Below, one piece after another: positions 2 to 28,794 of a stretch of DNA of 64,000 nt. The notes below the pieces were generated by a model. That model worked only from the letters and a program-made list of their open reading frames with translations, made no database searches and was not told the origin of the DNA. Within the stretch, counting starts at the first letter, position 1; each line of letters begins with the position of its first letter. The position numbers and the translations under genes were made by a program. This DNA comes from Bacteroides ovatus (GTDB lineage: Bacteria; Bacteroidota; Bacteroidia; Bacteroidales; Bacteroidaceae). The stretch lies in the NCBI RefSeq assembly GCF_001314995.1, contig NZ_CP012938.1, positions 372,001 to 436,000 of the forward strand, in the 5' to 3' direction.

Positions 2-373
2 CATCTGAATGGCTATACGGATAAGGCAAATAAAGACATAAAAGATATTCGTAACAGAGTGGGATTGTCTTACACAGACAAAAGTGGGGATGATTTAATG
101 AAAGCCATCCGTCAGGAACGCAAAGTAGAACTTGCTTATGAAGGACATTATTATTGGGACATGCGTCGTTGGAAATTATCTGCGACAGCATTTACCGGTA
201 TTCGTCTTCATGGAATGAAAATAGAGAAAAATGCAAATGGGTCTTTCACTTACATTTATACAGAATGTGATGATAAAGATCGTAATTTCCCGACTAAGAT
301 GTATCGTTTCCCAATGCCACAGGCAGAGTTGGACAATAACGGTGCGGTAACTCAATATGCAGAATGGCAATAA
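2..373 (+). CDS. SusD/RagB-like outer-membrane lipoprotein, C-terminal end (partial)
   Basis: The reading frame is open from base 2, so the start lies outside the window. The visible 123 residues are the C-terminal end of a SusD-family glycan-binding lipoprotein: an IRNRVGL segment, then the typical RQERKVELAYEGHYYWDMRRW stretch (residues about 35-58 of the fragment), and a final block with FPMPQAELDNNG near the stop. SusD proteins cap the SusC porin at the cell surface and capture oligosaccharides. Eighteen bases separate it from the next gene, so it is the first visible member of PUL A. Its SusC partner should lie just upstream. Family assignment is secure; substrate is unknown. Confidence 0.9.
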   Translation, partial: HLNGYTDKANKDIKDIRNRVGLSYTDKSGDDLMKAIRQERKVELAYEGHYYWDMRRWKLSATAFTGIRLHGMKIEKNANGSFTYIYTECDDKDRNFPTKMYRFPMPQAELDNNGAVTQYAEWQ

Positions 374-391
374 ATCTAAAATGAAAACATT

Positions 392-2089
392 ATGAAAAAG
401 AATATATTATATCTATTATTAGGGATTTTGGCTCTCACGAGTTCTTGCCAGGATCCGGAATATGTGCTTCCTACTGCGGACAGACAGGGAATCACGAGCT
501 TGACTGCACTCTTTACTTCTGGGCCATACGTGGATAAAGAGGCTGTGGTATATACTATTGCAGATGCTTCTGTAGATAAGTATGTAATTCCTATGCCATG
601 GTATTATCCGGAAAATAGTGATAATGAAACTTCAGAATATATGAAAGCGATGAGGATTCAGGCAAAGTTGGCACCAAACTGTACTATTGAACCGGTTCTT
701 TCAATTCTCGATCTGACTAAAGAGAATTATTTCACTTATACAGACGCTCAAGGATATAAGAAACAAATCTGCATCACAGGCGAAAGAGTTAAGTCTACTA
801 AGTGTCAGTTATTAAGTTTCTCAATACCGTCTGAAGACATTACAGGTATTATTGATGAAGACCACAAAACTGTATCTTTAATCTCTGCGGAAGATTTATC
901 TTCTTGCTTGGCAGATTATTCACTGTCGGCTCATGCGACCATGTCTCCGGATCCTAAAACAGAGCCTCTTAATTTTAATTCACCTGTTGAGCTTACAGTG
1001 ATTGCTCACGATGGAGTGACAAAGCAAACTTATACTATTCAAAAAGCAGTACCGGATAAGATTCCTTACGGATATAGAAAAGGTAGTGAGACAGAATTAT
1101 TTAAATTGGATATGGGAGTTATCGGCTTACCTTGGACTGGAGCAAATGCACCTTCTTTAGCTGTTTCCGGAAATAATCTGGTAGTTTGCTTGGGTGATGG
1201 TACCACAACTCCTGCATATTACAATGCATCTACGGGAAATAAGATTGGTAATGTAACTTTGGGTAGTGTGAGTGTTGCATCTTTAGGATGTATGACAAGT
1301 GATAGTAGGGGAAATATATTATTAGCAACGAAGGCTACTAATGGCAAGTCTTTCTCAATCTATAAGACTTCTTCTGTTACGACTGCTCCAACTTTATTGA
1401 CTACTTATACTAATAATACAGGGTTAGATATGGGTACGAAAGTGTCTATTCAAGGAGATATTAATACTAATGCCTCTATTATTGCTACTTGTGACGGAAC
1501 AGCCAGTTCAGGTTCCAATAAGTTTGTTCGTTGGATTATAACAGACGGTGTATTGGGAAGTCCTCAAGTAGTAACAGTGAATGGTGTAGGTAATTGGGGA
1601 GCTCCCGCATCAAACACTAAAGTTGTGACTAAAGGAACTACTGCTCAAAGTGATTATTTTTTGTCATACTATGATTCTAACATTCTTTATTGGGTGAATG
1701 GAACAAATAATAATGCAAGTAAATCTCTGGAAGACTCCGACAATGGTAATTCTTGGGCAATGAATAACAACTGTCTGGATACAAGAAGCTTTAATAATGC
1801 ACAATATCTTGTATTGGTATGTACAGCTCATTTCCCGCAATGGGGTGGAACTCCATGCTTATATATGTATGATGTAACGTCAGACGGATCATTCACTGGT
1901 ACAATATCTACTTCAGATGCTCTGTCATTCAATCCTTCACTTTCCTCATACAATTCATCCGATGGTGTAGCTGCAACAGGTGATGTATTGCTTGCTCCGA
2001 CAACAGATGGATATAAGCTCCGTGCTTACTACGTGGATAACAACTGTAAGGTTATCGGAGGATATGAATTTGATTGTATCGACAAATAA
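392..2089 (+). CDS. DUF5018-type surface lipoprotein, probable glycan-binding protein
   Basis: A 565-residue lipoprotein with a signal peptide ending in a lipobox (LALTSSC, Cys about 19). It sits where SusE/F-like surface glycan-binding proteins usually follow SusD. The first 220 residues look like Ig-like strands of the DUF5018 type, including the phrase VELTVIAHDGVTKQTYTIQKA. The remainder (from about 240) is beta-rich with short repeated blades (SDSRGNILLATKA, TASIIATCDGT-like) and resembles a propeller. The protein at 20024-21817 in PUL B has the same architecture. No catalytic motif is visible. The role is inferred from position and lipidation: substrate capture at the cell surface. A strong RNA hairpin follows the stop codon. 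Confidence 0.75.
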   Translation: MKKNILYLLLGILALTSSCQDPEYVLPTADRQGITSLTALFTSGPYVDKEAVVYTIADASVDKYVIPMPWYYPENSDNETSEYMKAMRIQAKLAPNCTIEPVLSILDLTKENYFTYTDAQGYKKQICITGERVKSTKCQLLSFSIPSEDITGIIDEDHKTVSLISAEDLSSCLADYSLSAHATMSPDPKTEPLNFNSPVELTVIAHDGVTKQTYTIQKAVPDKIPYGYRKGSETELFKLDMGVIGLPWTGANAPSLAVSGNNLVVCLGDGTTTPAYYNASTGNKIGNVTLGSVSVASLGCMTSDSRGNILLATKATNGKSFSIYKTSSVTTAPTLLTTYTNNTGLDMGTKVSIQGDINTNASIIATCDGTASSGSNKFVRWIITDGVLGSPQVVTVNGVGNWGAPASNTKVVTKGTTAQSDYFLSYYDSNILYWVNGTNNNASKSLEDSDNGNSWAMNNNCLDTRSFNNAQYLVLVCTAHFPQWGGTPCLYMYDVTSDGSFTGTISTSDALSFNPSLSSYNSSDGVAATGDVLLAPTTDGYKLRAYYVDNNCKVIGGYEFDCIDK

Positions 2090-2100
2090 TTAATCTCTTT

Positions 2101-2144
2101 ATCTCATATATGATGAGAAAGTATCTACTCGTCATATATGGGAT
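2101..2144 (+). other. intercistronic RNA hairpin (17-bp stem)
   Basis: The arms at 2101-2117 and 2128-2144 pair over 17 positions with two G-U wobbles and a 10-base loop. No run of T follows, so it is not a classical terminator. It lies in the 90-base gap between the DUF5018 gene and the phosphodiester glycosidase gene. It could protect the 3' end of the upstream susCD-DUF5018 message or act as a partial attenuator. A comparable hairpin sits after the DUF5018 gene of PUL B. Confidence 0.6.
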
Positions 2145-2179
2145 AAAGAAATCCGTAAATCATTTAAAGGAGTAGCTAT

Positions 2180-3178
2180 ATGTCAACAAAGAAAAAAATG
2201 TCATGGTTGTTATTATTACTACCTTTTTTTATAGCATGTGGTGATGATAACACTGATATTCCGGATTGGCCATGGGCAGAGCCGGAGACTCCAACTGAAC
2301 CTGTTGAAGCCAATCCTGATATTGTAAATTTGGGCTGGACTAATGTAAAAGACACTTATGGAACTTTACCTGAACATATCAACGTATATAAATCACCGGA
2401 AACATTGGAAGGCAAAAAGGCGATAGCTTATATTGCTGTGGGTAATATGAGTAAAGCAACATTTGGTGTATTAGGAGAAAAAACAGGATTGAAAAAGCCA
2501 AAAGAATTTTATGAAGAAAATAACTCCACGATTGTAATCAATGGAGGTTTCTTCTATGAGGGTTCATTAAGCCTAATATGGCGTAACGGTGAAATGGTGT
2601 GTAAGAACAATGATGTAACAGCAGAAGATTGGACTAACGGTCCATTCTGGTATCCTGTATTAGCTGCATTCTGTGAAATGAATGATGGCTCATTCAAATC
2701 AATGTGGACTTACACAACACTATCCAATGTTACTTATTGGTATTCGGAGCCCTCACCGGTAAAATCAGAAACAACTCCTGACGAAAATTTTCCGTCTACA
2801 GGAACTGTCTTAAATGCTAAAACAGGAATAGGCGGTGGCCCCGTACTTCTGTTGGATGGAAACATAAAGAATACATACGAAGAAGAAATCTTATCAGATA
2901 TTGGGGCCACGGTGAACAGACCTCGTTCGGCTATTGGTATCACCAATGATAAGAAAATGATTCTTTTTGTGTGTGAAGGAGATGGAATGACAACGGGAGT
3001 TGCCGGTATGACCACCGAAAATGTAGCTAATATCATGAAAACACTGGGATGTACGGATGCTATCAATTTGGATGGCGGTGGTTCCAGTTGCATGTTAGTC
3101 AATGGGCAAGAGACTATCAAGACAAGTGACTCCAGCGGAGACGAAAGATCCGTAGCATCAGTAGTCACTCTTAAATAA
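2180..3178 (+). CDS. phosphodiester glycosidase (NAGPA/DUF2233 family) lipoprotein
   Basis: A 332-residue lipoprotein (lipobox near FFIACG, Cys about 20) followed by a low-complexity linker rich in Pro/Glu/Thr. The rest is a DUF2233/NAGPA domain. Hallmarks seen: NGGFF (about residue 120), GIGGGPVLL (about 216), RPRSAIGI (about 250) and the near-C-terminal NLDGGGSSCML (about 295-305). The human homologue is the uncovering enzyme that hydrolyses GlcNAc-alpha-1-phospho-6-mannose diesters. A B. ovatus DUF2233 protein has been solved structurally (from memory). Expected reaction: release of a sugar from a sugar-1-phosphodiester at the cell surface. It lies in the PUL A operon, 53 bases before a GHL10 gene. 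Two further NAGPA domains are encoded in PUL B. The family is clear; the true substrate is unknown. Confidence 0.88.
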   Translation: MSTKKKMSWLLLLLPFFIACGDDNTDIPDWPWAEPETPTEPVEANPDIVNLGWTNVKDTYGTLPEHINVYKSPETLEGKKAIAYIAVGNMSKATFGVLGEKTGLKKPKEFYEENNSTIVINGGFFYEGSLSLIWRNGEMVCKNNDVTAEDWTNGPFWYPVLAAFCEMNDGSFKSMWTYTTLSNVTYWYSEPSPVKSETTPDENFPSTGTVLNAKTGIGGGPVLLLDGNIKNTYEEEILSDIGATVNRPRSAIGITNDKKMILFVCEGDGMTTGVAGMTTENVANIMKTLGCTDAINLDGGGSSCMLVNGQETIKTSDSSGDERSVASVVTLK

Positions 3179-3231
3179 AAAATGTACTGCGGATATATCA
3201 GGCAGTATCTACCTAATAAAACAAGTATGAT

Positions 3232-4635
3232 ATGAGAAAATTTCTAAAAATACTAATATTGACTTTCTTGGGAGCAGTTACAATAACCTCCTGTAGTGAT
3301 GATTCTGATGGAATTCCCGGATGGCCGTGGAACGATAATTCGACAGAAAAGCCGGACGAGCCGGATGTTGCAGAAGCTAAGCCACGATATATTTGGATTG
3401 ATGCGGCTGCTAATTTTCCTGACTATGCCAATAGTAAGGAAAACATAGCCAAAGATATGGAAAAGATAAAAGCGGCAGGATTCACTGATATTATTGTCGA
3501 TGTACGTCCCACTACAGGAGATGTATTATTCAATACTAATGTTGTAGATCAGGTGAAACGTATGGATGTATGGGGTAATTCCGGATATAGTTATTATGAA
3601 AGGACGGAAACTTGGGATTATTTACAGGCATTTATTGAGGAGGCTCGTATACAAGGATTAAAAGTGAATGCTTCTATCAATACATTTGTAGGAGGCTATT
3701 TATGTCCGTATAATTTAGGACATGATGGAGTCTTGTTCCGTGATGAATCAAAAAAAGGATGGGCTAGTGTAGCTAATCTAGCTGACGGGCTAACCAATAC
3801 GATGGATTTGTTGGACGATGAAACCGATTATGGAGCGAAATTTTTCAATCCCGCTAATGATGATGTACAAAACTTTGTTTTACAGTTGTTGGCCGACTTG
3901 GCTAAATATGATTTGGATGGCATCATATTGGATCGTTGTCGTTATGATGACTATGGCTTAGAAAGCGATTTTTCAGATATTTCCAAACAGAAGTTCGAAG
4001 AATACATCGGTGAAACTGTAGCAAACTTCCCGGCAGATATTATGGCACCCGGTACGGATGAAATACCTTCTGACCAGCCTGTTTATTTTAAGAAGTGGTT
4101 GGAATTCAGAGCGAAAGTTATTCATGATTTCATAGTAAAGGCACGCGAGAAAGTTAAATCTGTCAATAACAATATCAAGTTTGGAGTTTATGTTGGTGCC
4201 TGGTATTCAACATACTATACATCAGGCGTGAACTGGGCCAGCCCTAAATACAACACCTCCGCTTATTATCCGAAATGGGCTACTTCCGATTATAAGAATT
4301 ATGGATATGCGGACCATTTGGACTATATCTTTTTGGGTGCTTATGCTTCCGTGAACAATATATATGGAAGTGGCGAATGGACCATGGAAGGTTTTTGTAA
4401 GAATGGACGTGAACTGTTACAAGGAGATGTACCTTTTGCAGGCGGACCAGATATCGGTAACAGTACCGGATGGACTGACGGAGGACAATCTGCAAAAATT
4501 CCGGATGCTATTGATGCTTGTATCAGTAATAGTGACGGCTTCTTTGCCTTCGACCTTTGCCACGTTAAGAAATACGACTATTGGAACGCTTTTAAAACAG
4601 GCTTTGATAAATATCTGGAATCTATCGAAGAATGA
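3232..4635 (+). CDS. GHL10-like (DUF187-type) glycoside hydrolase lipoprotein
   Basis: A 467-residue lipoprotein (lipobox ITSCS, Cys about 21) with a short acidic/Pro linker and then a TIM-barrel of the family-10-like hydrolases (GHL10). Landmarks: RYIWIDAAANF at the barrel start (about 57), FTDIIVDVRPTTGD (about 83), DLDGIILDRCRYDDYG (about 226-241, probable acidic active-site strand) and YVGAWYSTYY (about 320). Together with the C-terminal half of the 6099-8753 product and the 21841-23850 product it forms a subfamily marked by LDRxRYD. GHL10 relatives include E. coli DigH, which cuts denuded peptidoglycan glycan strands. A role on an amino-sugar backbone is therefore plausible but inferred. 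Confidence 0.78.
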   Translation: MRKFLKILILTFLGAVTITSCSDDSDGIPGWPWNDNSTEKPDEPDVAEAKPRYIWIDAAANFPDYANSKENIAKDMEKIKAAGFTDIIVDVRPTTGDVLFNTNVVDQVKRMDVWGNSGYSYYERTETWDYLQAFIEEARIQGLKVNASINTFVGGYLCPYNLGHDGVLFRDESKKGWASVANLADGLTNTMDLLDDETDYGAKFFNPANDDVQNFVLQLLADLAKYDLDGIILDRCRYDDYGLESDFSDISKQKFEEYIGETVANFPADIMAPGTDEIPSDQPVYFKKWLEFRAKVIHDFIVKAREKVKSVNNNIKFGVYVGAWYSTYYTSGVNWASPKYNTSAYYPKWATSDYKNYGYADHLDYIFLGAYASVNNIYGSGEWTMEGFCKNGRELLQGDVPFAGGPDIGNSTGWTDGGQSAKIPDAIDACISNSDGFFAFDLCHVKKYDYWNAFKTGFDKYLESIEE

Positions 4636-4657
4636 GGTTTGAACTAACCAACTAATT

Positions 4658-6091
4658 ATGAAAATATATTTATTACAATTCTTTTTATTAATAGGTCTGG
4701 GCTTGAATTTACAAGCCCAGATTCCTTCTAACCCTATTCGCGGGAAAGTAACCTGTAATGGGACAGGAGTCCCGGGGGTAGTAGTGACCGACGGAATAGA
4801 CTGTGTGTTGACTGACCAACAAGGCCAATATACTCTCCCCCCTAATAGGGATGTTCGTTTCATTTATTTATCCACTCCTTCCGGATATTTACCGAAAACA
4901 GAACAAACAATACCTTTATTCTATCAGAAGCTGAATCCGGCCAAGCAAGATATTTACGACTTCGAATTGGTAAGAAATCCGCAAAATGAGATCAATCATT
5001 TGTTTTTGGTGCAGGCAGATGCGCAGGTTACTTCCGAAGATGACGTAAAGGCTTATGCTAAATATCTGCAAGATATGAAAGAATATATTCGTCCGTATAT
5101 GGGCAAAAAAGAAGTATTCGGCATAGATTGTGGGGATATCGTAGGAGATACTCCTTCTTTATATCCTTCCTATATAGATACGGTATCATCATTAGAGATT
5201 CCCATCTATCGGGCAATTGGTAATCACGACATGACGTATGGAGGGCGTACTTTTGAATATTCTTATCGCACTTTCGAAAGTTATTTCGGTCCTATCTACT
5301 ATTCATTAAATAAAGGTAATGCTCATTATATCGTGCTTGACAATTGCTTTTATGTCAACCGTGATTATCAATATATAGGTTACATTGATGAACGTACTTT
5401 CCAATGGCTGGAGAAAGACCTCTCTTATGTGCCCAAAGACAAACTTGTCTTTGTAGTGATGCACATTCCTTCCAGTCTTCAGAAGAAGCTAAGATATAAC
5501 ACGCTAGATCAAGATGAAACGGTCAATACAGCTGCACTATATAAATTATTGGAAGGTTATAATGCCCACATCATTTCCGGACATACACATTTTAATGTAA
5601 ACGTATGTTTTAATGACTCATTAATGGAACATAACACAGCTGCCGTATGCGGTACTTGGTGGCGTGCAGATATTAATGTGGATGGTACTCCGAGGGGATA
5701 TGGGGTATATGAAGTAGACGGGAACCAAGTGAAATGGCTATATAAAAGTGCAGGCTACCCGAAAGAGCATCAATTACATGTATATCAGGCCGGATCATCT
5801 GACGAGTACCCTTCCGATATTATTGCTAACGTATGGAACTGGGATGAACAGTGGAAAGTGGAATGGTATGAAAACGGAAAGCGAATGGGAGAAATGCAAC
5901 GCTACAAAGGATATGATCCTGCAGCCAAAGCAATCTGTTCTGACAAAGAAAAGGTGAAATATGAATGGATTTCCCCAGTTCTTACCGAACATCTATTTCA
6001 TGCTACTCCCCGTAATAAAAATGCTAAAATAGAAGTGAAAGTAACAGATCGCTTCGGCAATGTGTATACTGAAGCTGTCGAAAACAAATAA
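4658..6091 (+). CDS. calcineurin-like metallophosphoesterase with N- and C-terminal beta domains
   Basis: 477 residues with a cleavable signal peptide (start MKIYLLQFFLLIG, cleavage near LQAQ), so periplasmic or secreted. Residues about 25-110 form a carboxypeptidase-regulatory-like N domain. The metallophosphoesterase core carries the standard metal ligands: QADAQ (about 119), CGDIVGD (about 160), GNHD (about 188), MHIP (about 268) and SGHTHF (about 308). The C-terminal 130 residues are the beta-rich extension known as the metallophosphatase C-terminal domain. It should remove phosphate or split a phosphodiester. In PUL A it sits between GHL10 and the acetylesterase-GHL10 fusion, so a phosphate-containing substrate is likely. 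PUL B has no counterpart. Confidence 0.88.
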   Translation: MKIYLLQFFLLIGLGLNLQAQIPSNPIRGKVTCNGTGVPGVVVTDGIDCVLTDQQGQYTLPPNRDVRFIYLSTPSGYLPKTEQTIPLFYQKLNPAKQDIYDFELVRNPQNEINHLFLVQADAQVTSEDDVKAYAKYLQDMKEYIRPYMGKKEVFGIDCGDIVGDTPSLYPSYIDTVSSLEIPIYRAIGNHDMTYGGRTFEYSYRTFESYFGPIYYSLNKGNAHYIVLDNCFYVNRDYQYIGYIDERTFQWLEKDLSYVPKDKLVFVVMHIPSSLQKKLRYNTLDQDETVNTAALYKLLEGYNAHIISGHTHFNVNVCFNDSLMEHNTAAVCGTWWRADINVDGTPRGYGVYEVDGNQVKWLYKSAGYPKEHQLHVYQAGSSDEYPSDIIANVWNWDEQWKVEWYENGKRMGEMQRYKGYDPAAKAICSDKEKVKYEWISPVLTEHLFHATPRNKNAKIEVKVTDRFGNVYTEAVENK

Positions 6092-6098
6092 GAATCAT

Positions 6099-8753
6099 AT
6101 GTTAAAAGCCAAATATTTTATATTATTGATATGCTTCTCGTTTCTCCTGAAAACAGAAGCGAAAGTAACCCTTACTTCCATTTGGGGGGATAATATGGTG
6201 TTACAGCAACAATCGGAAGTTACTTTTTCCGGAACAGCGACTTCGGGAAAACGTGTGCAGGCTACCGCTTCATGGAATAATAAAAAAATCCAAACGAATG
6301 TTGATGCAAAAGGTGAATGGAAACTTTCTCTCCAAACACCGGTAGCTGGAGGTCCGTATAGTATTACGTTCTCGGATGGAGAGGACCTCACATTGCAGAA
6401 TATTTTAATAGGAGAAGTCTGGTTCTGTTCCGGACAGTCGAATATGGAAATGCCAGTGAAAGGATTCCGTGGACAGCCTGTGTTTGGTTCCCAACCATAC
6501 ATTGTATCTGCTAATCCCAAACGTCCACTGCGTTTCTATACTGTAAAAAATGCCTGGAGTACCATTCCACAGGAAGCTGGGGTGGACGGAGAATGGAAAG
6601 AAGCCTCTCCGGAAGATGTTGCTGATTTCAGTGCAACTGCCTATTTCTTTGGCAATCAGTTACAGCAATCTTTGGATGTTCCTGTCGGTCTGATACATTG
6701 TTCCTGGAGCATGTCAAAAATAGAGGCTTGGATGAATAAAGAGACTTTATCGGGCTTTCCGGAAATAGCATTGCCTGATGTAGCACAGAAAGAGTTCGGG
6801 TGGACGGCAGGGACTCCTACATTATTGTGGAATGCAATGGTGAATCCATGGAAAGGATTTCCTGTTAAAGGAGTGATTTGGTATCAAGGTGAAGCAAACA
6901 CACCCGATCCCGGATTATATAAGAGATTATTTCCTGCAATGGTTTCTCAATGGAGAACATTCTTCAACAATCCCCAAATGCCATTTTATTACGTACAGAT
7001 TGCACCATGGAAATCGGAAGGCAATGATAAACTGGATTGGGCTTGGTTCCGTCAATGCCAGCTGGAGCTGATGTCAGCTGTTCCAAATGTTGGAATGGTG
7101 ACCACAGGTGATGCCGGGAGTGAAAACTTTATTCATTCGCCCTATAAGATAAAGGTCGGTGAACGACTGGCTTATTGGGCATTGGCAAAAACGTATCATC
7201 GTAAAGGTATTCAATATTCCGGTCCTATATACAAATCCCACTGGGTAAAAGGGAATGTAGTAGAAATAGACTTTGAACATGGTGAAGAAGGATTGACTCC
7301 GGAAAATCAAAACGTGAAAGGATTTGAAATAGTGGGGACGGATGGTATATTCCGACCGGCCAAAGCGGAAATTATCAATGGTTCTTCTACTGTAAAGGTC
7401 TGGAATGATTCGATCAATGACCCCATAGAGGTACGTTATTGTTTCCGGAATTATATGTTGGGAGAATTATGCAATAATGCGGCTATTCCTGCTTCTCCTT
7501 TCCGGATTGTAATCAAAAAGAAACCTGCGTTAATGTGGTTCGATGCCGAAGCTAACTTCGAACGTTTCAGCCATAAAGACTCGATTGACTATTATTTGGA
7601 GAAAATCAAATCAGTAGGTTTCACTCATGCAATAGTGGATATACGGCCCATTACGGGAGAAGTACTTTATCAAAGTCAGTTTGCCTCACAAATGAAAGAG
7701 TGGAAAGGCGCAAAGGCCGGGAATTTTGATTATTTGCAATACTTCATTAAAAAAGGGCACGAATTGGGGCTTGAGATTCATGCTTCATTAAATGTATTCT
7801 GTGCCGGACACAATTATTTCGATCGTGGAATGGTATATAGTGGACATCCGGACTGGGCATCCATGGTATATACTCCCGATAAAGGCATTATTCCGATTAC
7901 GGAAGAAAAACAAAAATATGGTGCTATGGTTAATCCTCTGAATGAGGAGTATCGTGCGCATATTCTAAATGTACTGAAAGAAGTAGTGACCAAATACCCT
8001 GATTTGGATGGCTTGATGCTCGACCGCGTACGCTATGATGGTATAACAGCCGACTTCTCACCGCTTTCACGCGAAAAGTTTGAAGCGTATATAGGTAAGA
8101 AAATGGCGAAGTTCCCCGAAGATATTTTTGTTTGGAAGAAGAATACGGATGGGAAGTTTATCACACAACCGGGAAAGTATTTCCAGAAATGGATGGAATG
8201 GAGAACGAAAAACATTACTGATTTTATGGCATTGGCACGTAAGGAAGTGAAAGCCGCCAATCCAAAAGTTTCTTTCGGCACATATACCGGAGCTTGGTAT
8301 CCGTCTTACTATGAAGTGGGAGTTAATTTCGCCAGCAAAAAGTATGATCCGGCTAAAGACTTCAGTTGGGCCACTCCCGAATATAAAAATTACGGATACG
8401 CGGAACTGATCGATTTGTATGCAACCGGAAATTACTATACAGACATAACGATAGAGGAATACAAGAAAACGAACCGCAACATCTGGAACGAGACAGATTC
8501 GCAGGCTCAAGCCGGTACATGGTACTGTGTAGAAGGTTCCTGTCAGCACTTGCGTCAGATTCTTAAAGACAACAAGTTTATGGGCGGCATCTTGGTGGAT
8601 CAGTTCTATGATAATCCGGGGAAATTATCCGAAACAATAGAGATGAACCTTCGTCGATCGGATGGACTAATGGTATTTGATATAGTACACATCATCCAAA
8701 AGAATCTTTGGAAAGAAGTAGAAAAAGGAATGCGCGAGGGGGGAGCTTTATGA
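6099..8753 (+). CDS. two-domain enzyme: sialate O-acetylesterase-like (SASA) fused to GHL10 hydrolase
   Basis: 884 residues from ATG 6099. An upstream in-frame start at 6060 is rejected because it overlaps the previous gene and lacks a signal peptide; the 6099 start gives one (LICFSFLLKTEA). Residues about 25-470 are a SASA-type SGNH esterase: VLQQQSEV, the nucleophile motif CSGQSNMEMPVKG (about 110-122), WYQGEAN (about 260) and FIHSPYK with the likely catalytic His. Residues about 474-884 are a GHL10 barrel (MWFDAEANFERF, DLDGLMLDRVRYDG about 641, YTGAWYPSYYEVG). The pairing predicts a substrate that is O-acetylated on the sugar GHL10 recognises. The SASA half is a close paralogue of that in the 14396-16726 product, which has a different partner domain. 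The gene overlaps the next by 4 bases. Confidence 0.88.
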   Translation: MLKAKYFILLICFSFLLKTEAKVTLTSIWGDNMVLQQQSEVTFSGTATSGKRVQATASWNNKKIQTNVDAKGEWKLSLQTPVAGGPYSITFSDGEDLTLQNILIGEVWFCSGQSNMEMPVKGFRGQPVFGSQPYIVSANPKRPLRFYTVKNAWSTIPQEAGVDGEWKEASPEDVADFSATAYFFGNQLQQSLDVPVGLIHCSWSMSKIEAWMNKETLSGFPEIALPDVAQKEFGWTAGTPTLLWNAMVNPWKGFPVKGVIWYQGEANTPDPGLYKRLFPAMVSQWRTFFNNPQMPFYYVQIAPWKSEGNDKLDWAWFRQCQLELMSAVPNVGMVTTGDAGSENFIHSPYKIKVGERLAYWALAKTYHRKGIQYSGPIYKSHWVKGNVVEIDFEHGEEGLTPENQNVKGFEIVGTDGIFRPAKAEIINGSSTVKVWNDSINDPIEVRYCFRNYMLGELCNNAAIPASPFRIVIKKKPALMWFDAEANFERFSHKDSIDYYLEKIKSVGFTHAIVDIRPITGEVLYQSQFASQMKEWKGAKAGNFDYLQYFIKKGHELGLEIHASLNVFCAGHNYFDRGMVYSGHPDWASMVYTPDKGIIPITEEKQKYGAMVNPLNEEYRAHILNVLKEVVTKYPDLDGLMLDRVRYDGITADFSPLSREKFEAYIGKKMAKFPEDIFVWKKNTDGKFITQPGKYFQKWMEWRTKNITDFMALARKEVKAANPKVSFGTYTGAWYPSYYEVGVNFASKKYDPAKDFSWATPEYKNYGYAELIDLYATGNYYTDITIEEYKKTNRNIWNETDSQAQAGTWYCVEGSCQHLRQILKDNKFMGGILVDQFYDNPGKLSETIEMNLRRSDGLMVFDIVHIIQKNLWKEVEKGMREGGAL

Positions 8754-19050: not shown

Positions 19051-19090
19051 CTTACATCATTTTTGTTAATCAATAATATTCTTTTGAGGA

Positions 19091-19966: not shown

Positions 19967-19984
19967 ATTGATAAGAGATTAAAT

Positions 19985-20011: not shown

Positions 20012-20023
20012 GTTTATTAGTTG

Positions 20024-21817: not shown

Positions 21818-21840
21818 CTTTCACGAGTATTATATGTTCA

Positions 21841-23850
21841 TTATTTTTTCTTAATGGAAAAAGCTATTTTCATTTGTTCGAAAAAAGTATTCCAATCAAC
21901 ATAACAATTATCGAAAATCATCAAACCTGATGAATTCTTTAGTGAAGCCCCAAACACTTTTCCCTGATCGGTAACACTTAAATCAGGCAAACTCATTGAA
22001 CCTAACAATGGAATTTGTCCACATGTAAGGATATTCCCTAGAGTAATGTATCGATTGACTTCTTTAGGCGTTTTATAATAAGTTCCGATCATCAGAAAGT
22101 CTAAATTGTTTAAGTAACTTGTTTTATTGTAATTTTCTCCGTAGATTTCACTATCTGGAAATGATAATCGATCATCATATTTAAATTGATTACTAGCCCA
22201 ATTTACTCCATTTTGATAATATACTTCATACCAGGACCCTACATAAGCTGCCATTTTTAAATCCGGATTCTTTTCAGTTTTATACTTATCTACTAATGAG
22301 CGAATACGTCCGGTAAAGTCACAAATAGTTTGAGAGCGGAAAGTAATCCATTCTTTAAAGAATTGACCTTTTACTAATGTGCCTTCTTTGTCTATTTTGA
22401 AAGCATCAGCAGGAAAGTTCTCTAAAATTTTGCCTTCTTTCTCCAGGTATTCTTCAAATGCGTTTCGAGTCACATGACTAAAGTCAGCATATAAATTATC
22501 ATAACGACAGCGATCTAATACGATACCATCTATATCATAATTTTTTAGAACTTCTTCCACGCGCAACAATTGAAAGTCCTGCACTTCTTTATTAGAAGGA
22601 TTTACAAAAGCTAAAGCTAACAGTTTACCTTTAGCAGCTTCTTTCCCTCTTGTACTTTCTGTGATTTTCAATAGTTTACCTTTGTCTTCGGGGCGTTGCA
22701 CTATTTCCTCCCAGTCTTTATGTTCATGAAGAATGGCATAATCATTTACAGTAATATTTCCTTCTGTGAAGAAATTAAAACTAGTATAGACTTTGAGTCC
22801 AATCTTATGTGCTTCCTGGAGTACAACCTCCAGCAAATCAAATCCATCATCCTTCACTTGTTTATTCGGATTTTTGGTTGCAGTTAGATAAGGAGTTTTT
22901 GAAAGATCGTTTTTGCGGTAAGAAACATATCCTTCTGGTCCTTTTACATCTAACCCAATGGAAGTGAACCCTGCTTTCTTTGCGTTATTAACCATAGTGG
23001 CTACAGCTTCTCTATTAGTTAACACCTTTGCATTAGGAAACTGCTCCACCCACATAACCAATTCACTCTGTTGTTGATTTGGAACTTTGGAGAATATGGC
23101 AACAGACTTACGAGTAATTTCTTTCCCTTCTTTTTTCAATATCCAATTGAAGAAATTAGTACCATCATTCAGAGTTAACTGATTACGAAATAGCCCCTTT
23201 GTTGTAACAGCTACTGGTTTTGTTTCTGTTCGGTTTTCTATAAACAACTGATAATTGGCTTTTTTATCATAATTAGCAATACAACCGCTTAATGTAGTCT
23301 TACTTCCTACAACAGTAAATAAGAAATCATTATCCAATTCTATTTGAGGCGGAATACTCCCTTTGGAAAAAGCAATCACTTTATCCAATGAATGTACTTC
23401 TCCATCAATCCGCAGCTTTACAACATCTCCTACATGGAAGTTCTCGGCAAGAAATTTACGGTAACCATCCTTTAGATAGTCAGTATCATAACCAATTAAT
23501 GTAAACTCTGCCTGTCCCAATGTTATATCCAAAGGAGCGCTAAATGCTGGTTGAGCATTTTTAGAGATTACACCATTCAGGACTTTAATCACTTTCATAT
23601 CTCCATTTATCACTACGGCTGTATATGTGCTTTGAGTCGATTTTATAGCTTTTTTATATTCCGTAGATAATAGGACAATTCCTTTTTCTTGCTTTTCCCA
23701 GGCAGAATTATTGAATAAGTCTATCTGCTTTTCAGGACCGCGTACAGTTAATGTCGGATCCGGACTTGCAGCTTCAATTGTCACTACGGTCTGTGCCGAT
23801 ATAAAAACCGGCACTAACAGTAATGATAATATAATAATTAATCTATTCAT
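21841..23850 (-). CDS. GHL10-like hydrolase with large N-terminal extension
   Basis: 669 residues from ATG 23850; a GTG nine bases upstream is less likely because the signal peptide starts at MNRLIIILSLLLVPVFISAQ. Residues about 20-250 form a beta-rich region of unknown function. Residues about 260-669 are the GHL10 barrel of the LDRxRYD subfamily: FTSIGLDVKGPEGYV, LKVYTSFNFF, YDIDGIVLDRCRYDN (about 445), YVGSWYEVYYQNGVNWAS and GLMIFDNCYVDW. It follows susD by 17 bases. This placement directly behind SusCD suggests it makes the first cut on the captured polymer at the surface or in the periplasm (inference). Confidence 0.78.
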   Translation of the reverse strand: MNRLIIILSLLLVPVFISAQTVVTIEAASPDPTLTVRGPEKQIDLFNNSAWEKQEKGIVLLSTEYKKAIKSTQSTYTAVVINGDMKVIKVLNGVISKNAQPAFSAPLDITLGQAEFTLIGYDTDYLKDGYRKFLAENFHVGDVVKLRIDGEVHSLDKVIAFSKGSIPPQIELDNDFLFTVVGSKTTLSGCIANYDKKANYQLFIENRTETKPVAVTTKGLFRNQLTLNDGTNFFNWILKKEGKEITRKSVAIFSKVPNQQQSELVMWVEQFPNAKVLTNREAVATMVNNAKKAGFTSIGLDVKGPEGYVSYRKNDLSKTPYLTATKNPNKQVKDDGFDLLEVVLQEAHKIGLKVYTSFNFFTEGNITVNDYAILHEHKDWEEIVQRPEDKGKLLKITESTRGKEAAKGKLLALAFVNPSNKEVQDFQLLRVEEVLKNYDIDGIVLDRCRYDNLYADFSHVTRNAFEEYLEKEGKILENFPADAFKIDKEGTLVKGQFFKEWITFRSQTICDFTGRIRSLVDKYKTEKNPDLKMAAYVGSWYEVYYQNGVNWASNQFKYDDRLSFPDSEIYGENYNKTSYLNNLDFLMIGTYYKTPKEVNRYITLGNILTCGQIPLLGSMSLPDLSVTDQGKVFGASLKNSSGLMIFDNCYVDWNTFFEQMKIAFSIKKK

Positions 23851-23867
23851 ACTAAACACATTAGATA

Positions 23868-25754
23868 TTACTCACCATATCCTTTATTTTGTTCTAACCA
23901 AGGACATTTATTTCGCTCTGTTTGTGGAACAGGCCATAAGTAATGCCTATTATTCCAACTACGGCCTTTATCACGAGATCTTAATTTATCACCATATGCT
24001 GCATAACTAGCAATATCATTGATATCTCTGTCCGATCCTGAAGCGCCATAAGAAGGAACCATATCCGGAGTAGCCTGCTCATATCCATCAGGATATTTGC
24101 CTGTAGCCGGATCTACACCTGTCGCTTTCGGATAACCATAAGTGGGTTCAGCATTCTGAATATCACCTGTTCTCCAACGACGCATATCAAATAACATTAA
24201 TGCCTCTTTGGCTAATTCCACTTTACGTTCACGACGTACAATTTGACGCATCTTTAATTGATCATTCTCACGTGTCGGATCAACACTTAAGATACCAGGC
24301 ATACCTACACGAGCTCTGACGCGGTCTATTGCATTTACTGCCGTTGCATCTAATTCATTAAGTTCTATTTTTGCTTCGGCATACGTCAAAAGAATCTCTG
24401 CAAATCGCATAATCAGGATATTATAGCTCGGATTAGCGTTTGCCTCATCATCAAAATGGTTATATTTCTTCCAGGCAAATCCCACACCACTACTTACATA
24501 TCCATATTGAGCAACAGCACCTGCATAATCTAAGTTGGCAACCAACTTTTCATTACCGTCTTTATCCCAAGAAGTAGTTTGAGGATTATAAACTTCCATC
24601 AAGAATTTCATTTTATTATCTCCACCAGTATTACCGATGATAACGTCATGATGAGTGTAAACCGTTTCTTTTAAACGAGGGTCACGACTTTCAAATGGTT
24701 TCTTGGGGTTATATCCGGAACCTGTTTCATCAATACGTTTACCATTTTTCATTTCATAGGTATCTACTAACTGTTGAGTAGGAAAACGCCCACTTTGTCC
24801 AATCATGCGAACTTGTTCGCCTAGAGACATGTATTGGGTAAAAGAATGAATTTGGTTGGAAAACATCATAAATAACATTGTTTCCTTTTTTACGTCTTCT
24901 TTTAGTTGCCCTATCCGGGTAAACAGATCTGCATAATTAGTAGCCAGATCACGTCCACTTTCGTCTATAACTTTTTTAGAAGCTGCTGCTGCAATTTTAA
25001 AGTATTCTGTAGCTTTAGCCTGATCTTTTTCACCATCCATACCAAAACCAAATTTACACCATGAACCGGCATATAAAGCCAATCTGGCTTTCAGTCCTAA
25101 TGCTACCGATTTATCGACGCGTCCATAATTGGCCGCTGTCCAAGGTAAAATATCCGCAGCTTCGTCCAATGTTTTTAATATATCATCTACAACTTCTTTC
25201 CAAGGTGTACGAGAAACTTGCTTTGTTTGTTCCTCTGTGACTGCAGATGTAAAATATGGAATATCACCCCATAAAGAAACTAGTTGAATATAATAATGAG
25301 ATCTCAAAACCTGAATTTCTGCAAGGTAGGTTTTGGCCTTATCACTTAATTCATTATAAAAAGGCTTAGCTCCATCTAACACTGAATTACATCTTGCTAC
25401 AGAAGTGTATAGAATAGACCACGTTTGTTCTACTGTGAAATTCGTACGTAACTCAATATTGCCAACGCCGATAGAACTATTGTCTGCGCGTTCGATACCA
25501 TAAGGAGTATACATATCCCATAATATACAATAAGGTATACTACTAGTATTACTATGGTCCATCAGTAGACGTTGGTAACACCCATTAGCACCTTGTGCTA
25601 TTGCACCATCGTTATTGTAAAAGTTGGATGATAAGTATTCACTCATAGGCTCTTTGTCTAAATAGTCACTACAGCCCGCTATCCCTAATGATAATATCAA
25701 AGCTCCACTTGCCAGAACCTTGTTATTAAATATATATTTGATTGCTTTTTTCAT
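23868..25754 (-). CDS. SusD/RagB-like glycan-binding lipoprotein (PUL B)
   Basis: 628 residues; signal with lipobox SLGIAGC (Cys about 28), then SDYLDKEP, the classical SusD opening. Helical TPR-like content with YIQLVSLWGDIPYF (about 150), AEILLTYAEAKIELNELD (about 465) and RRERKVELAKEALMLFDMRRW (about 520) confirm the family. It pairs with the SusC 13 bases upstream to form the surface uptake complex. The C-terminal YLWPVPQTERNKCP is the usual SusD ending. The ligand is unknown; it should be the polymer attacked by the NAGPA/GHL10/SASA enzymes of this operon. Confidence 0.95.
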   Translation of the reverse strand: MKKAIKYIFNNKVLASGALILSLGIAGCSDYLDKEPMSEYLSSNFYNNDGAIAQGANGCYQRLLMDHSNTSSIPYCILWDMYTPYGIERADNSSIGVGNIELRTNFTVEQTWSILYTSVARCNSVLDGAKPFYNELSDKAKTYLAEIQVLRSHYYIQLVSLWGDIPYFTSAVTEEQTKQVSRTPWKEVVDDILKTLDEAADILPWTAANYGRVDKSVALGLKARLALYAGSWCKFGFGMDGEKDQAKATEYFKIAAAASKKVIDESGRDLATNYADLFTRIGQLKEDVKKETMLFMMFSNQIHSFTQYMSLGEQVRMIGQSGRFPTQQLVDTYEMKNGKRIDETGSGYNPKKPFESRDPRLKETVYTHHDVIIGNTGGDNKMKFLMEVYNPQTTSWDKDGNEKLVANLDYAGAVAQYGYVSSGVGFAWKKYNHFDDEANANPSYNILIMRFAEILLTYAEAKIELNELDATAVNAIDRVRARVGMPGILSVDPTRENDQLKMRQIVRRERKVELAKEALMLFDMRRWRTGDIQNAEPTYGYPKATGVDPATGKYPDGYEQATPDMVPSYGASGSDRDINDIASYAAYGDKLRSRDKGRSWNNRHYLWPVPQTERNKCPWLEQNKGYGE

Positions 25755-25767
25755 AATATCTGATTAT

Positions 25768-28700
25768 TTAAAATTTTAAATCAATACCAAACGTAAATGT
25801 TTGCATAATGGGGTAGAATTCCCCGCCAACAGAGCCGCTATATGCAACCTCCGGGTCATATCCCTTATAGAAATTACTAATAGTAAATAGATTCTGTCCA
25901 CTAGCATACACTCTCAAGCTACCAATATTTAATTTTTTAGTCCATGAATTAGGTAAAGTATAGCCTAAAACAACATTCTTCAAACGACAATAAGAGGCGT
26001 CTCGTACCCATTTATCAGATTTTTGATAGTTAGGGCCCGCATTGGCTTCAGGAACCAAAATCGGGTATGCTGCATCCTGATTGTCCGGAGTCCATGAATC
26101 CATTTGATGTCTGAAAAGATTTGAACCATTGGCAAAAGGTTTAAGACCAACTCCGCTCATGTAATTTACACGTTGTCCTACTCCTTGGAAGAATGCTGTA
26201 AAATCAAAATTTTTCCAACCAGCATTTAATGTTACGCCATATTCAAAGTGCGGGAATGGGTCACCAAGATAAACCATATCCCGAGTATCAATTGTCATAG
26301 GATCGGAATCTTCCCCCTGATAAACTTTAACATACTTAACAAATCCCGGACGGGCATCTCCTAATTTTGGAGAATTATTGACATCATCCCAGTCCTTATA
26401 GTATCCGTCAGTCACATATCCCCAAATACCTTTGTTAGGATAACCCTCTACCATTGTTTTATCTTGAGAATTAAGTCCGTTTAGATTAGTAATTTTGTTG
26501 CGGTTGTCACTTAAAGTAAATGTTACTCCATACGTAAAGTCATTTAATTTATTTTTATGACTGACACTCACTTCCCAACCCTTGTTGGACATATCTCCTG
26601 CATTGGTATACGCGGGACTCATTCCTACATAGTATGGTAATGGGAACTTCATTAACATATCATAAATATTTTTGATGTAATAATCGGCTGTAACGCTTAA
26701 CAAACCATTCCACAAACTGAAATCAATACCAAAGTTTATTTGCTTTGATTTTTCCCAACTGATATTAGAATTAGCCAACGTCGTTTGGGCAACGCCTGAT
26801 ACTAATTCTTTGTCTGCTTCATCACCACCTAAATAGTATCCGTATCCAGTAGCAATGGTTGCAGCATAAGGATAATTACCGATGTTTTGATTTCCCAAAA
26901 GGCCGTAAGAAGCACGTACTTTTAAAAAGTCAAGCACTTTACGGGTAGGTTTCATGAAGTTTTCTTCAGATATGACCCAACCGGCAGATACCGAAGGAAA
27001 AAATCCCCATCGATTATCTCTGGTAAAGCGGGAAGAGCCGTCGTAACGACCATTCACCTCCAGTAAATAGCGCTGTTTATAGTTGTAATTCAAACGAGCA
27101 TACCACGACATCATAGCCCATGAATTTGCCCCACCAGAGGAAGTTGCGGTTGCAGAATCTCCATTACCTAAATAATAACGTCCTAGGTCGAAACCCCTTT
27201 TTCCACCAGAGAAAGAAGTGTTCAGATTATCTTCTGCCTGGAAGCCGACTAATATTTTTCCATAATGGTCAAAGAATTTATTTTCATACGAAGCTTGTGC
27301 ACGATAATAATTTCTAACGGTTTCGCTCCAGCTCTCTGTTAATGAATCATCTGTTGGATATGATCCCATAATTTGGCCTTTTAAAGACGTTGTATATGGG
27401 GTTATTAAAGCTCGTTCTCTACTTGTGGATTGACGACGAGAGTATTGTCCAACAAGCTCCAATCCCTTAATAGGAGTTAGAGTTAATGTACCGTTTACTA
27501 CAGCATCCGTACCTTTACTTATTTTTTCTCCGCTATCATATGCCTGCGCAGTAGGATTCATTCCATTCTTTCCATATCCCCAATTTCCATCCAGCTCTCT
27601 GGCAGCAGAAAGAGTGGGCAACATATATAAAGACTGATTGATAATCTGTTTGGGAGTACTCAAACCCGGATTTACTTTTTTACCTTGTCTTAATGCTGTT
27701 TCAATGCTAAACTTAGCCCATGGAAGTATTTGAGCATCTGCATTTAAACGAAGGTTGGTACGACTATAATTATCATTAGGTATCAAACCATCTTGATATA
27801 GATAAGTACCAGAACCGAAGAAAGTCAGTTTGTCACTACCACCACTAATTGTTACATTATGATTATGCATGATTGAATGACTTTTCATCGTTTCGTCTTT
27901 CCAATTTGTATCATACCTGTTCCAATTATCTGGACGTAATGTTTTTTGTTCTTCTATCTGTTGCAGTTGTTGAGCTCTTTGTGCATCGGATACTGTAATT
28001 TCTGCATTATCCCAAGCATTTAGTTCTGCTTGTAAATACTCCCATGCAGCCACCGGTTCGGGCATGTTAGTCGGGCGCTGAATTGTCAGATAGCCACTAT
28101 ACGTAGTTGTTATTTTTCCTTTTTGTCCTCTTTTAGTTGTAATAAGGATAACACCATTAGATGCCCGGGAACCGTAAATTGATGCAGAAGCTGCATCTTT
28201 CAGAACAGAAATGCTCTCTACTGTATTGGCGTCTACTTGGTCGATACTCATTTCAATTCCATCAACTAAAACCAGCGGATCCGTATTTGAATTAATAGAA
28301 CCGATACCGCGAATTCGAATAGAGCCACCATCACCACCAGGTTCACCGGAAGTTTGCTGAATAGTCACACCGGGCATGGCACCTTGTAAAGCAGTAGATA
28401 AGGATGCTACGCTTCTTTTTGTTATAGTTTCAGAACTAACAGAAGATACGGCTCCGGTTAATGTAGCTTTTTTCTGTTTAGCATATCCCACAACTATTGC
28501 TTCTTCTAGCTGGATAGCATCAGTCTTCATCTTTACATTTAGTACAGAAGTATTTGCGACTAGTTCTTCTGTCCGGTAACCGACATAAGAGAAAACCAAT
28601 TTACTTCCTTTCTTTACTTCAATAGAATACTTTCCATTAATATCTGAAATTGTTCCTTTAGACGTACCTTCAACAAAGATACTTACTCCTGGCAATACAT

Positions 28701-28794
28701 CGGATTCATCAGAGACAACTCCTTTCACAATTAAATTCTGTGCTTGTATACTGACAGAACTTAGCATTAAAATTAAAAACAGAATTTTTCTCAT
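25768..28794 (-). CDS. SusC/RagA-like TonB-dependent outer-membrane transporter (PUL B)
   Basis: 1008 residues from ATG 28794. The frame stays open upstream to 28953, but that part overlaps the epimerase gene; the 28794 start gives a good signal peptide (MRKILFLILMLSSVSIQAQ). Domains: carboxypeptidase-regulatory-like domain (about 22-105), plug with LEEAIVVGYAKQKKATLTGA and SLSTALQGAMPGVTIQ (about 120-240), then the beta-barrel ending TFTFGIDLKF. It imports oligosaccharides using TonB energy. Only 20 bases separate it from the upstream epimerase gene and no promoter fits there, so it seems to depend on readthrough or on a promoter inside that gene. Confidence 0.95.
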   Translation of the reverse strand: MRKILFLILMLSSVSIQAQNLIVKGVVSDESDVLPGVSIFVEGTSKGTISDINGKYSIEVKKGSKLVFSYVGYRTEELVANTSVLNVKMKTDAIQLEEAIVVGYAKQKKATLTGAVSSVSSETITKRSVASLSTALQGAMPGVTIQQTSGEPGGDGGSIRIRGIGSINSNTDPLVLVDGIEMSIDQVDANTVESISVLKDAASASIYGSRASNGVILITTKRGQKGKITTTYSGYLTIQRPTNMPEPVAAWEYLQAELNAWDNAEITVSDAQRAQQLQQIEEQKTLRPDNWNRYDTNWKDETMKSHSIMHNHNVTISGGSDKLTFFGSGTYLYQDGLIPNDNYSRTNLRLNADAQILPWAKFSIETALRQGKKVNPGLSTPKQIINQSLYMLPTLSAARELDGNWGYGKNGMNPTAQAYDSGEKISKGTDAVVNGTLTLTPIKGLELVGQYSRRQSTSRERALITPYTTSLKGQIMGSYPTDDSLTESWSETVRNYYRAQASYENKFFDHYGKILVGFQAEDNLNTSFSGGKRGFDLGRYYLGNGDSATATSSGGANSWAMMSWYARLNYNYKQRYLLEVNGRYDGSSRFTRDNRWGFFPSVSAGWVISEENFMKPTRKVLDFLKVRASYGLLGNQNIGNYPYAATIATGYGYYLGGDEADKELVSGVAQTTLANSNISWEKSKQINFGIDFSLWNGLLSVTADYYIKNIYDMLMKFPLPYYVGMSPAYTNAGDMSNKGWEVSVSHKNKLNDFTYGVTFTLSDNRNKITNLNGLNSQDKTMVEGYPNKGIWGYVTDGYYKDWDDVNNSPKLGDARPGFVKYVKVYQGEDSDPMTIDTRDMVYLGDPFPHFEYGVTLNAGWKNFDFTAFFQGVGQRVNYMSGVGLKPFANGSNLFRHQMDSWTPDNQDAAYPILVPEANAGPNYQKSDKWVRDASYCRLKNVVLGYTLPNSWTKKLNIGSLRVYASGQNLFTISNFYKGYDPEVAYSGSVGGEFYPIMQTFTFGIDLKF

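Follow-up and report, generated by a model that had tools for sequence, protein, structure and literature searches.

Facing polysaccharide utilisation loci of Bacteroides ovatus as a candidate two-slot platform for amino-sugar cassettes

In the 6.47-Mb single-contig genome of Bacteroides ovatus (here G000), the stretch C1:372001-436000, referred to as the window (64,000 nucleotides), carries two polysaccharide utilisation loci (PULs) facing each other. They are designated PUL A and PUL B. Both have adjacent SusC and SusD genes together with glycan-active enzymes, which identifies them as Sus-type loci, and both encode NAGPA, SASA, GHL10, and DUF5009 domains. The question is why two such loci face each other, and on which glycan they act. 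It is fairly probable that they occupy a two-slot exchange platform for amino-sugar PUL cassettes, and that the glycan is O-acetylated and probably carries hexosamine-1-phosphodiesters.

The original prediction, made from the window sequence alone, described two facing operons. The gene sets are real, but both operons were drawn too short, and the inverted-repeat architecture was overlooked. PUL A starts about 10 kb before the window, where a ROK gene on the reverse strand is followed by genes for an FAD oxidoreductase, a DUF4434 protein with a Tat signal, a sugar-porter MFS, an N-acetylglucosamine (GlcNAc) 2-epimerase (AGE), SusC, and SusD (L009). PUL B goes beyond 28794 through an AGE gene and an MFS remnant, up to the sialidase gene at 30704.

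Inverted arms and the exchange of cassettes

The repeat and the genes at its right end are as follows.

28839-30622 (C1:400839-402622): right arm of the inverted repeat; the left arm is C1:365715-367407, about 6.3-4.6 kb before the window
28815-29993, reverse strand: AGE of PUL B (PF07221, 2.1e-89; 739 bits to NF052547)
30125-30589, reverse strand: 3' remnant of MFS, 154 aa (PF00083 positions 303-452 only)
30704-32338, forward strand: sialidase (BNR), the fixed right flank (PF14873, 6.6e-56; PF13859, 1.5e-27)

In G000, the arms match in opposite orientation over the MFS 3' part (529 bp at 96.8%) and the AGE part (1165 bp at 83.2%). The remnant lacks approximately the first 300 residues, and its homology to the full MFS gene begins about 906 nt into the gene. 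AGE genes were searched at the NF052547 level in 149 genomes of the genus (G000 included), and genomes with two convergent AGE genes within 40 kb were called twin genomes. Seven were found: G000 (copies of 731-739 bits), G029, G043, G092, G106, G110, and G127. G117 has two AGE-level genes in tandem. Six of the seven twin genomes show a full MFS gene on one side and a remnant of 134-155 aa on the other, and the sialidase gene adjoins the remnant in all six. In G043, this sialidase gene is split into two open reading frames (ORFs; L061:17381-18902). Besides G000, arm identity is 98.4% over 1709 bp (G029), 97.5% over 1779 bp (G043), 96.8% over 507 bp plus 90.8% over 1167 bp (G106), 87.9% over 1791 bp (G127), 84.9% over 923 bp (G110), and 83.8% over 1696 bp (G092). 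Since the repeat begins at nearly the same place in the MFS gene (899-909 nt) in six of six genomes, the remnant probably arose once.

The interior between the arms is inverted between two of these genomes. Positions 1-5745 of the G106 locus, which cover the ROK flank as far as the MFS 3' end, are collinear with 774-6520 of G092 at 97.6%. Within 7818-38210 of G106, blocks of 15.5, 5.9, and 7.8 kb (about 29 kb) align with G092 in reverse orientation at 96-97% identity. In G106, a cassette with alpha-N-acetylglucosaminidase (NAGLU) occupies the ROK side; in G092 it occupies the sialidase side, and the second cassette has changed the opposite way. Misassembly in G092 is unlikely because its arms are only 84% alike. 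Exchange is seen in G110, taken as Bacteroides xylanisolvens XB1A, where PUL A is still on the left and the right slot has a NAGLU cassette at the place of PUL B in G000. XB1A is a close relative: the DUF5018 proteins agree at 100% over the best segment, and the PUL A DNA shows 98.2-98.5% identity to G110. The SusD gene of this PUL A counterpart is split, an additional ORF separating its pieces (L049:8012-9940). Comparison of the genomes indicates that recombination between the arms inverted the interior and that cassettes were exchanged between species. Arm-mediated inversion may also take place within one strain.

In all of the six genomes but G092, the two MFS ends resemble each other more than those of other genomes, a pattern that speaks for exchange going on between the copies. 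The full gene end and the remnant differ at 11, 14, 1, 17, and 5 nt (of 405-468) in G000, G029, G043, G106, and G127, and in five of six genomes these differences are fewer than those to either copy in the other five. In a tree of the MFS ends, the pairs of G029, G043, G000, and G106 are supported at 100, 90, 70, and 66, the G127 copies stand together at the base, and the G092 copies are unpaired. The MFS gene itself is a mosaic: G106 and G092 are 98.2% identical in the 5' 880 nt versus 92% in the last 465, and G000 and G106 are 80.1% versus 93% identical. The gaps between MFS and AGE are not bound to a side. The right gap of G106 equals the left gap of G092, with the same cassette; the left gap of G000 is nearly that of the right side of G092, with different cassettes; and the right gaps of G000 and G127 are nearly equal. 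The rule that the gap travels with its cassette holds for the G106-right/G092-left pair, fails for the NAGLU cassette, and was dropped. The inversion and the arm data stand without it, and confidence in the platform is therefore unchanged.

Only one slot adjoins the ROK gene. Between this gene and the operon, G000 has a perfect 18-bp palindrome, TAATAAAATATTTTATTA, which is also perfect in G043, G127, G106, and G092, that is, in all five twin genomes whose ROK side was fetched. Three further loci next to a ROK gene match 17 of its 18 bases. No other copy within one mismatch is present in the G000 genome, and one more exists at two mismatches; 20 shuffles of 60 kb gave no similar site within two mismatches. 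In G000, the interval from the remnant to the sialidase gene contains no site within four mismatches. The palindrome is likely to be the operator of the ROK regulator, which may bind there; this argument comes from its place and perfect conservation, not from a genome-wide count. A genome-wide regulon was rejected, the reversed-pattern control being equally frequent, and a window site at 20157 with three mismatches is not above chance (0.26 expected; at least one in 23 of 100 shuffles). The Bacteroides -7 promoter motif is TAnnTTTG. It has no exact match in the MFS-AGE gaps or in the remnant-sialidase gap, and since it is missing on the sialidase side too, this promoter test is insensitive.

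In the proposed platform, a cassette would begin with AGE, continue with SusC/SusD and enzymes, and often end with an SGNH esterase. Two cassettes would face each other between the inverted copies of the MFS 3' end and AGE. The left slot would have the ROK regulator, its likely palindromic operator, the FAD oxidoreductase, DUF4434, and intact MFS, and the right slot the 3' MFS remnant only, beside the fixed sialidase gene. An inversion within a strain would alter which glycan program sits behind the ROK-controlled operon start.

Gene content of PUL A, PUL B, and related loci

PUL A contains the following genes within the window.

2-373, forward strand: 3' end of SusD (PF07980, 1.9e-32); the whole gene is L009:12712-14373 (7e-74)
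392-2089, forward strand: DUF5018 lipoprotein (PF16410, 1e-161; lipobox), which may bind glycan at the surface
2180-3178, forward strand: NAGPA lipoprotein with acidic residues after the Cys (PF09992, 1.3e-27; NLDGGGS, RSAIG; lipobox)
3232-4635, forward strand: GHL10-DUF4985 lipoprotein (Pfam; lipobox; AlphaFold2 pLDDT 89.9)
4658-6091, forward strand: calcineurin-like phosphoesterase, MetallophosN/C (Pfam)
6060-8753, forward strand: SASA-GHL10-DUF4985 fusion, with GHL10 in the C-terminal part (Pfam)
8708-10162, forward strand: DUF5009 protein (PF16401, 1.7e-78; DxxR and one His invariant)

PUL B, read from its end, contains the following.

10818-11888, reverse strand: GxDLY-SGNH esterase (PF14606, 4.4e-73; PF14607, 8.8e-51), which often closes such cassettes
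11894-13081, reverse strand: GHL10 protein without DUF4985 (PF02638, 7.9e-47)
13126-14376, reverse strand: NAGPA protein (PF09992, 7.9e-30; a lipobox is likely by eye, LLAC, and was missed by the pattern search)
14396-16726, reverse strand: SASA-NAGPA fusion, with NAGPA in the C-terminal part (Pfam)
16734-18137, reverse strand: DUF5009 protein (PF16401, 3.3e-79; weak match to HGSNAT 8vkj, E 0.0013)
18166-19050, reverse strand: lipoprotein of unknown family, predicted beta-rich (no Pfam match; 632 relatives; AlphaFold2 pLDDT 90.8)
19091-19966, reverse strand: paralogue of the preceding lipoprotein, 59% identity (no Pfam match)
20024-21817, reverse strand: lipoprotein without known family (no Pfam or NCBIfam match; lipobox, then acidic residues)
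21841-23859, reverse strand: GHL10 protein with N-terminal extension (PF02638, 1.4e-13)
23868-25754, reverse strand: SusD (PF07980, 7.1e-42)
25768-28953, reverse strand: SusC (PF07715, 1.8e-20); the 5' end of the ORF overlaps AGE, and the true start is further in

Domains were called with hmmscan against Pfam, and those counted as confirmed all exceed the Pfam cut-offs. The predicted three NAGPA, four GHL10, two SASA, and two DUF5009 domains were all recovered, as were the MetallophosN/C protein, the GxDLY-SGNH esterase, and the SusC/SusD pair of PUL B. A second DUF5018 protein in PUL B was not: 20024-21817, probably the protein given that name, matches no Pfam family (E<=0.01) or NCBIfam family (E<=0.001) and aligns with the DUF5018 protein of PUL A only locally (29% over 185 aa). 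The lipoproteins at 18166-19966 are tandem paralogues from a family that is widespread in Bacteroidota and has no Pfam match. All fold matches of the 18166-19050 protein are weak, the best being yncM 4hfs (TM 0.48 on the query).

The three NAGPA proteins score 97.5, 104.7, and 105 bits against PF09992 (cut-off 25), and N121, R249, N296, and D298-S302 are 95-100% conserved among 20 sequences. The NAGPA domain is shared with the human uncovering enzyme NAGPA and with 3ohg, and NLDGGGS and R-x-A-[IV]-G are present in all three window proteins; matches to 3ohg and NAGPA chains in the PDB are only local, the best covering 213-308 of 332 residues. The PUL A protein matches 3ohg (DUF2233 family) at 4.6e-13. 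The three proteins are predicted to be glycosidases of GlcNAc-1-phosphodiesters. 3ohg is presumably BACOVA_00430, for which weak activity on GlcNAc-P-mannose has reportedly been seen. G000 has two more PULs with NAGPA genes. In L010 (C1:3006000-3024000), two NAGPA genes (7408-8391 and 10367-11347), one with the BACOVA_00430 N-terminal domain, occur with BACON, DUF6528, GH3, and metallophosphoesterase and adjoin SusC/D and FecR. In L011 (C1:5008000-5026000), SusC/D and two NAGPA genes (6823-9752) lie directly upstream of a rhamnose operon. Clusters of two to three large NAGPA-domain proteins (ORFs of 820-857 aa) were also observed outside the PULs studied, in G073:C94, G049:C2, and G087:C1:3084160-3090001.

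The predicted fold of the PUL A GHL10 protein (3232-4635) is most similar to Cwp19 and next to PgaB among solved structures; together with its conserved active-site region, this model suggests a Cwp19/DigH-like GHL10 enzyme. The NAGPA and GHL10 proteins of PUL A (2180-3300) resemble each other in the N-terminal linker, where a WPW motif follows the lipidated Cys. In the phosphoesterase, the GD, NHD, and GHxH residues are invariant wherever present (22 sequences). Among 120 relatives listed for the SASA-NAGPA protein, SASA is combined with NAGPA in at least 15 and with GHL10 in at least six.

DUF5009 is grouped with HGSNAT in the TmAT superfamily, whose DxxR motif is kept in the window proteins: D9 and R12 are invariant in all 21 sequences with letters there (23 aligned). 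His36 is likewise invariant (21 of 21); the HMMER alignment to 8vkj starts beyond it and pairs Asp48 with HGSNAT His297. The protein may be an HGSNAT-like membrane acetyltransferase. The literature records no experimental confirmation of function for any DUF5009 protein. A whole-genome search of G000 gave the two window copies at 266-269 bits and a third place at 27 bits (cut-off 25). Across the order, 7 of 247 genomes have DUF5009 at E<=1e-20, with four places in other genera. The AGE copy of PUL A reaches 731.8 bits to NF052547 (equivalog cut-off 600) and 532 bits to the AGE of the PDB; cellobiose epimerase was rejected, as that model gives 76 bits.

Counterparts in PUL A and PUL B show local identities of 34% (SusC), 24% (SusD), 42-50% (NAGPA), 57% (DUF5009), and 51% (SASA part), and the AGE proteins are 90% identical. 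By these identities, the two PULs are old paralogues. A recent simple duplication of one PUL is ruled out by the 24-57% identity of the counterparts, AGE being the exception.

The genus was surveyed from DUF5018 matches, so that loci without DUF5018 escape. Matches at E<=0.001, mostly weak, were found in 99 of the 149 genomes, and 28 places of at least 275 bits (27 fetched and one in the window) plus four weaker ones were taken. The gene set of the original prediction recurs: 24 of the 28 strong places, spread over 22 genomes, are GHL10-type loci resembling PUL A, and thus the set is not a chance assembly. The core order is FAD oxidoreductase, DUF4434, MFS, AGE, SusC, SusD, DUF5018, (NAGPA), GHL10, phosphoesterase, SASA, GHL10, DUF5009, (NAGPA), (SGNH), with exceptions. 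NAGPA is present in 17 of the 24 loci, the PUL A-like phosphoesterase in 21 (one further locus has a single-domain Metallophos protein), and DUF5009 in 22 (of the other two, one contig ends early). AGE is present in 16 of the 19 loci whose contig extends far enough, broken in G052 and truncated in G110. A GDPD gene closes the operon after DUF5009 in one of the 24 (G073, L087:1197-2270), and G029 and G117 also have phmmer-similar relatives of its product in their AGE-bounded regions. Pfam scans covered part of the unclassified ORFs in the fetched loci, and gene presences are minimum counts; an ADP-ribosylglycohydrolase gene is inserted in at least three PUL A-type operons from three species (L052:13879-15465, L057:14292-15215, L058:3485-5071). 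The remaining four strong places belong to another PUL type, of which the one scanned (L071) has NagA, NagB, GH3, MFS, Gfo/Idh, and a GH26-like protein.

Comparisons with published systems draw on parts of PMC10434189, PMC6989115, PMC7531118, PMC3878776, PMC9007349, PMC12423673, PMC12632263, PMC5765458, PMC3969230, PMC7670621, PMC10017367, PMC5238430, PMC10076258, and PMC10154615. In these extracts, Bacteroides thetaiotaomicron BT0446-BT0454 has the same named genes in the same order (DUF5009, GH10, calcineurin-like, GH10, SusD, SusC, MFS), and the neighbouring set BT0438-BT0443 has alpha-N-acetylglucosaminidase, SusC/SusD, and DUF4855. The order of the numbers in the published operon names, BT0453-BT0449 and BT0439-BT0443, hints at a facing arrangement. 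NAGPA is not among the genes named there, and the likeness is one of published gene names, not of sequence. The apparent counterpart was already in print as an uncharacterised operon induced in vivo, so the statement that no PUL with this logic had been described is not quite right.

The substrate and the alternative explanations

An acetylated amino-sugar glycan that contains phosphodiesters and probably N-acetylmannosamine (ManNAc) would suit AGE, MFS, NAGPA, the phosphoesterase, the acetylesterases, and the HGSNAT-like protein. Such a substrate is suggested by the AGE model score, the swap of the SASA partner (GHL10 in PUL A, NAGPA in PUL B), the retained motifs, and the presence of NAGPA, AGE, and the phosphoesterase in most of the orthologous loci. 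The surface NAGPA and GHL10 lipoproteins would attack the glycan, and a periplasmic phosphoesterase, SASA/SGNH esterases, and further GHL10 enzymes would complete its breakdown. DUF5009 would N-acetylate glucosamine across the inner membrane, MFS would import free N-acetylhexosamine, and AGE would convert ManNAc to GlcNAc for the usual pathway. The acetylated, phosphodiester-linked amino-sugar polymer originally proposed is thereby supported in part.

Several observations speak against the platform and its substrate. The twin layout occurs in only 7 of 149 genomes, though draft assemblies may conceal more, and the convergent AGE genes of G110 are both truncated (581-585 bits, below the cut-off of 600), with MFS on neither side. 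No inversion was seen within one species or strain. G092 breaks the pattern of the MFS ends, with 51 differences between its own copies and 29-32 to others, and the tree support of two pairs (66 and 70) is weak. The gaps of the NAGLU cassette differ between G106 and G092, and the left gap of G000 recurs, nearly unchanged, on the NAGLU side of G092. Operator-like sites within two mismatches are as numerous genome-wide as those of the reversed pattern. The published extracts describe BT4338-dependent induction in vivo for both operons of B. thetaiotaomicron, and therefore the right slot is not simply silent. Seven of the 24 orthologous loci lack NAGPA, other cassettes behind the same AGE or in the same slots have NAGLU, GH3, GH20, or DUF4855 instead, and no assay of the PUL A/B enzymes or their direct counterparts was met in the literature.

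The alternative that survives best assumes no live switch: an old inverted duplication would have had its arms homogenised by gene conversion, and the inversion between G106 and G092 would be rare and without regulatory use. This is a serious possibility, falling only somewhat short of an even chance. No recombinase gene is among the annotated locus genes of G000, a divergence of 16-17% separates the two arms of G092 along their full length and those of G000 along the AGE part, and both B. thetaiotaomicron operons can be expressed, as far as the extracts go. The near-identity of the long arms in G043 and G029, the position of cassettes on opposite sides in near relatives, and the restriction of the operator to one side count against it.

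Three other substrates were considered, each of them unlikely. One is the Gram-positive wall. NAGPA would free GlcNAc-1-phosphate from 6-phosphorylated N-acetylmuramic acid (MurNAc), the phosphoesterase would strip the MurNAc phosphate, SASA/SGNH would take O-acetyls, DUF5009 would re-N-acetylate glucosamine or import MurNAc, GHL10 would cut bare glycan strands, and AGE would recycle the ManNAc of the linkage unit. Every enzyme class, AGE included, would have a job, the GHL10 fold is nearest Cwp19, and NagX, an HGSNAT relative like DUF5009, is reported to be a distant relative of TfMurT, a putative MurNAc transporter. MurQ is in G000 at C1:4814590, far from the locus, and neither PUL has a MurNAc-specific gene. 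Besides the GDPD gene of G073, three more lie within 20 kb on the other strand (G143, G058, G122); the family is present in 23 of 24 genomes searched and ends the operon once only, and GDPD was dropped as a teichoic marker. In vivo induction is also described for the counterpart in B. thetaiotaomicron; if this was in mono-colonised mice, as reportedly, no living Gram-positive bacterium was there. The wall-teichoic linkage unit named in the original prediction is a candidate that fits the enzymes; no sequence test prefers teichoic acid over other amino-sugar glycans.

It is similarly improbable that the PULs serve sialylated N-/O-glycans of the host together with the neighbouring sialidase, GH2, and GH20, with AGE handling the ManNAc derived from sialic acid. 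The sialidase, GH2, and two GH20 genes directly follow, and Bacteroidetes epimerise ManNAc to GlcNAc according to the extracts. There, too, BT0451-BT0461 is called a characterised N-glycan PUL in one paper, a further point against the favoured substrate, and the ROK regulator BT0433 is predicted to be NanR for sialic acid and GlcNAc, its orthology to the PUL A ROK being only putative. The PULs lack the sialate lyase of a sialic acid (nan) PUL; the three DHDPS-family places in G000 all lie outside the locus. Two NanL-like genes elsewhere have their own NanM or AGE-like partner, and a sole role of AGE in sialic acid use is less likely; as both fall short of the NanA equivalog cut-offs, they are themselves only likely sialate lyases. 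The cassette content also varies beside an unchanged sialidase gene. To our knowledge, no role of NAGPA, GHL10, or DUF5009 on N-glycans has been described.

The third is a phosphate-free glycan, heparan-like or partly de-N-acetylated poly-GlcNAc, from which NAGPA would plainly release alpha-GlcNAc, as NAGLU does; this too has a low probability. NAGLU cassettes take the same slots, DUF5009 is HGSNAT-like, PgaB is the second-best GHL10 fold, and NAGPA is absent from some loci. The phosphoesterase, retained with intact motifs in 21 of the 24, argues against this reading, and no lyase or sulfatase was found among the Pfam-annotated PUL A/B proteins.

Known systems and meaning of the platform

The proposed platform resembles, in the published extracts, the invertible SusC/SusD and capsule loci of Bacteroides, where DNA inversion changes how surface-glycan genes are placed with respect to an expression site. 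At the capsule loci, inverted repeats enclose the promoters, which a global invertase turns; for SusC/SusD, the extracts name a site-specific invertase. The platform differs in that whole multi-enzyme PULs relocate and the arms of 0.9-1.8 kb, mostly coding, lie in MFS and AGE, unlike the site-specific type with short promoter-flanking repeats (short repeats inside the arms were not searched for). No invertase is among the Pfam-annotated genes from ROK to GH20 in G000, invertases elsewhere in the genome not having been searched. Repeats at the invertible capsule and SusC/SusD loci are short. The nan operons of Bacteroidetes have a ROK regulator, MFS, AGE, and a nearby sialidase in common with this locus, but PULs A and B lack the sialate lyase, and of the NanL-like genes elsewhere in G000 one is beside NanM. 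No described reference family of teichoic-acid-degrading PULs was found.

Whole-PUL exchange through long inverted repeats in transporter and epimerase genes appears to be new, as none was found in the open-licence literature searched. No paper on NAGPA in a PUL was found among the matches listed there, which is no proof of absence. A bolder version of the platform, a doubtful one, is a reversible switch in which arm recombination would flip about 36 kb and place either program behind the ROK start, the arms would swap programs between species, and the targets would be bacterial phosphoglycans with ManNAc and GlcNAc-1-phosphate. The proposed platform itself gives a case of whole PULs, not single promoters or SusC/SusD pairs, relocating through long repeats in metabolic genes. 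If the PULs indeed dismantle phosphoglycans of other bacteria, gut Bacteroides would gain a route to feed on the envelopes of their neighbours.

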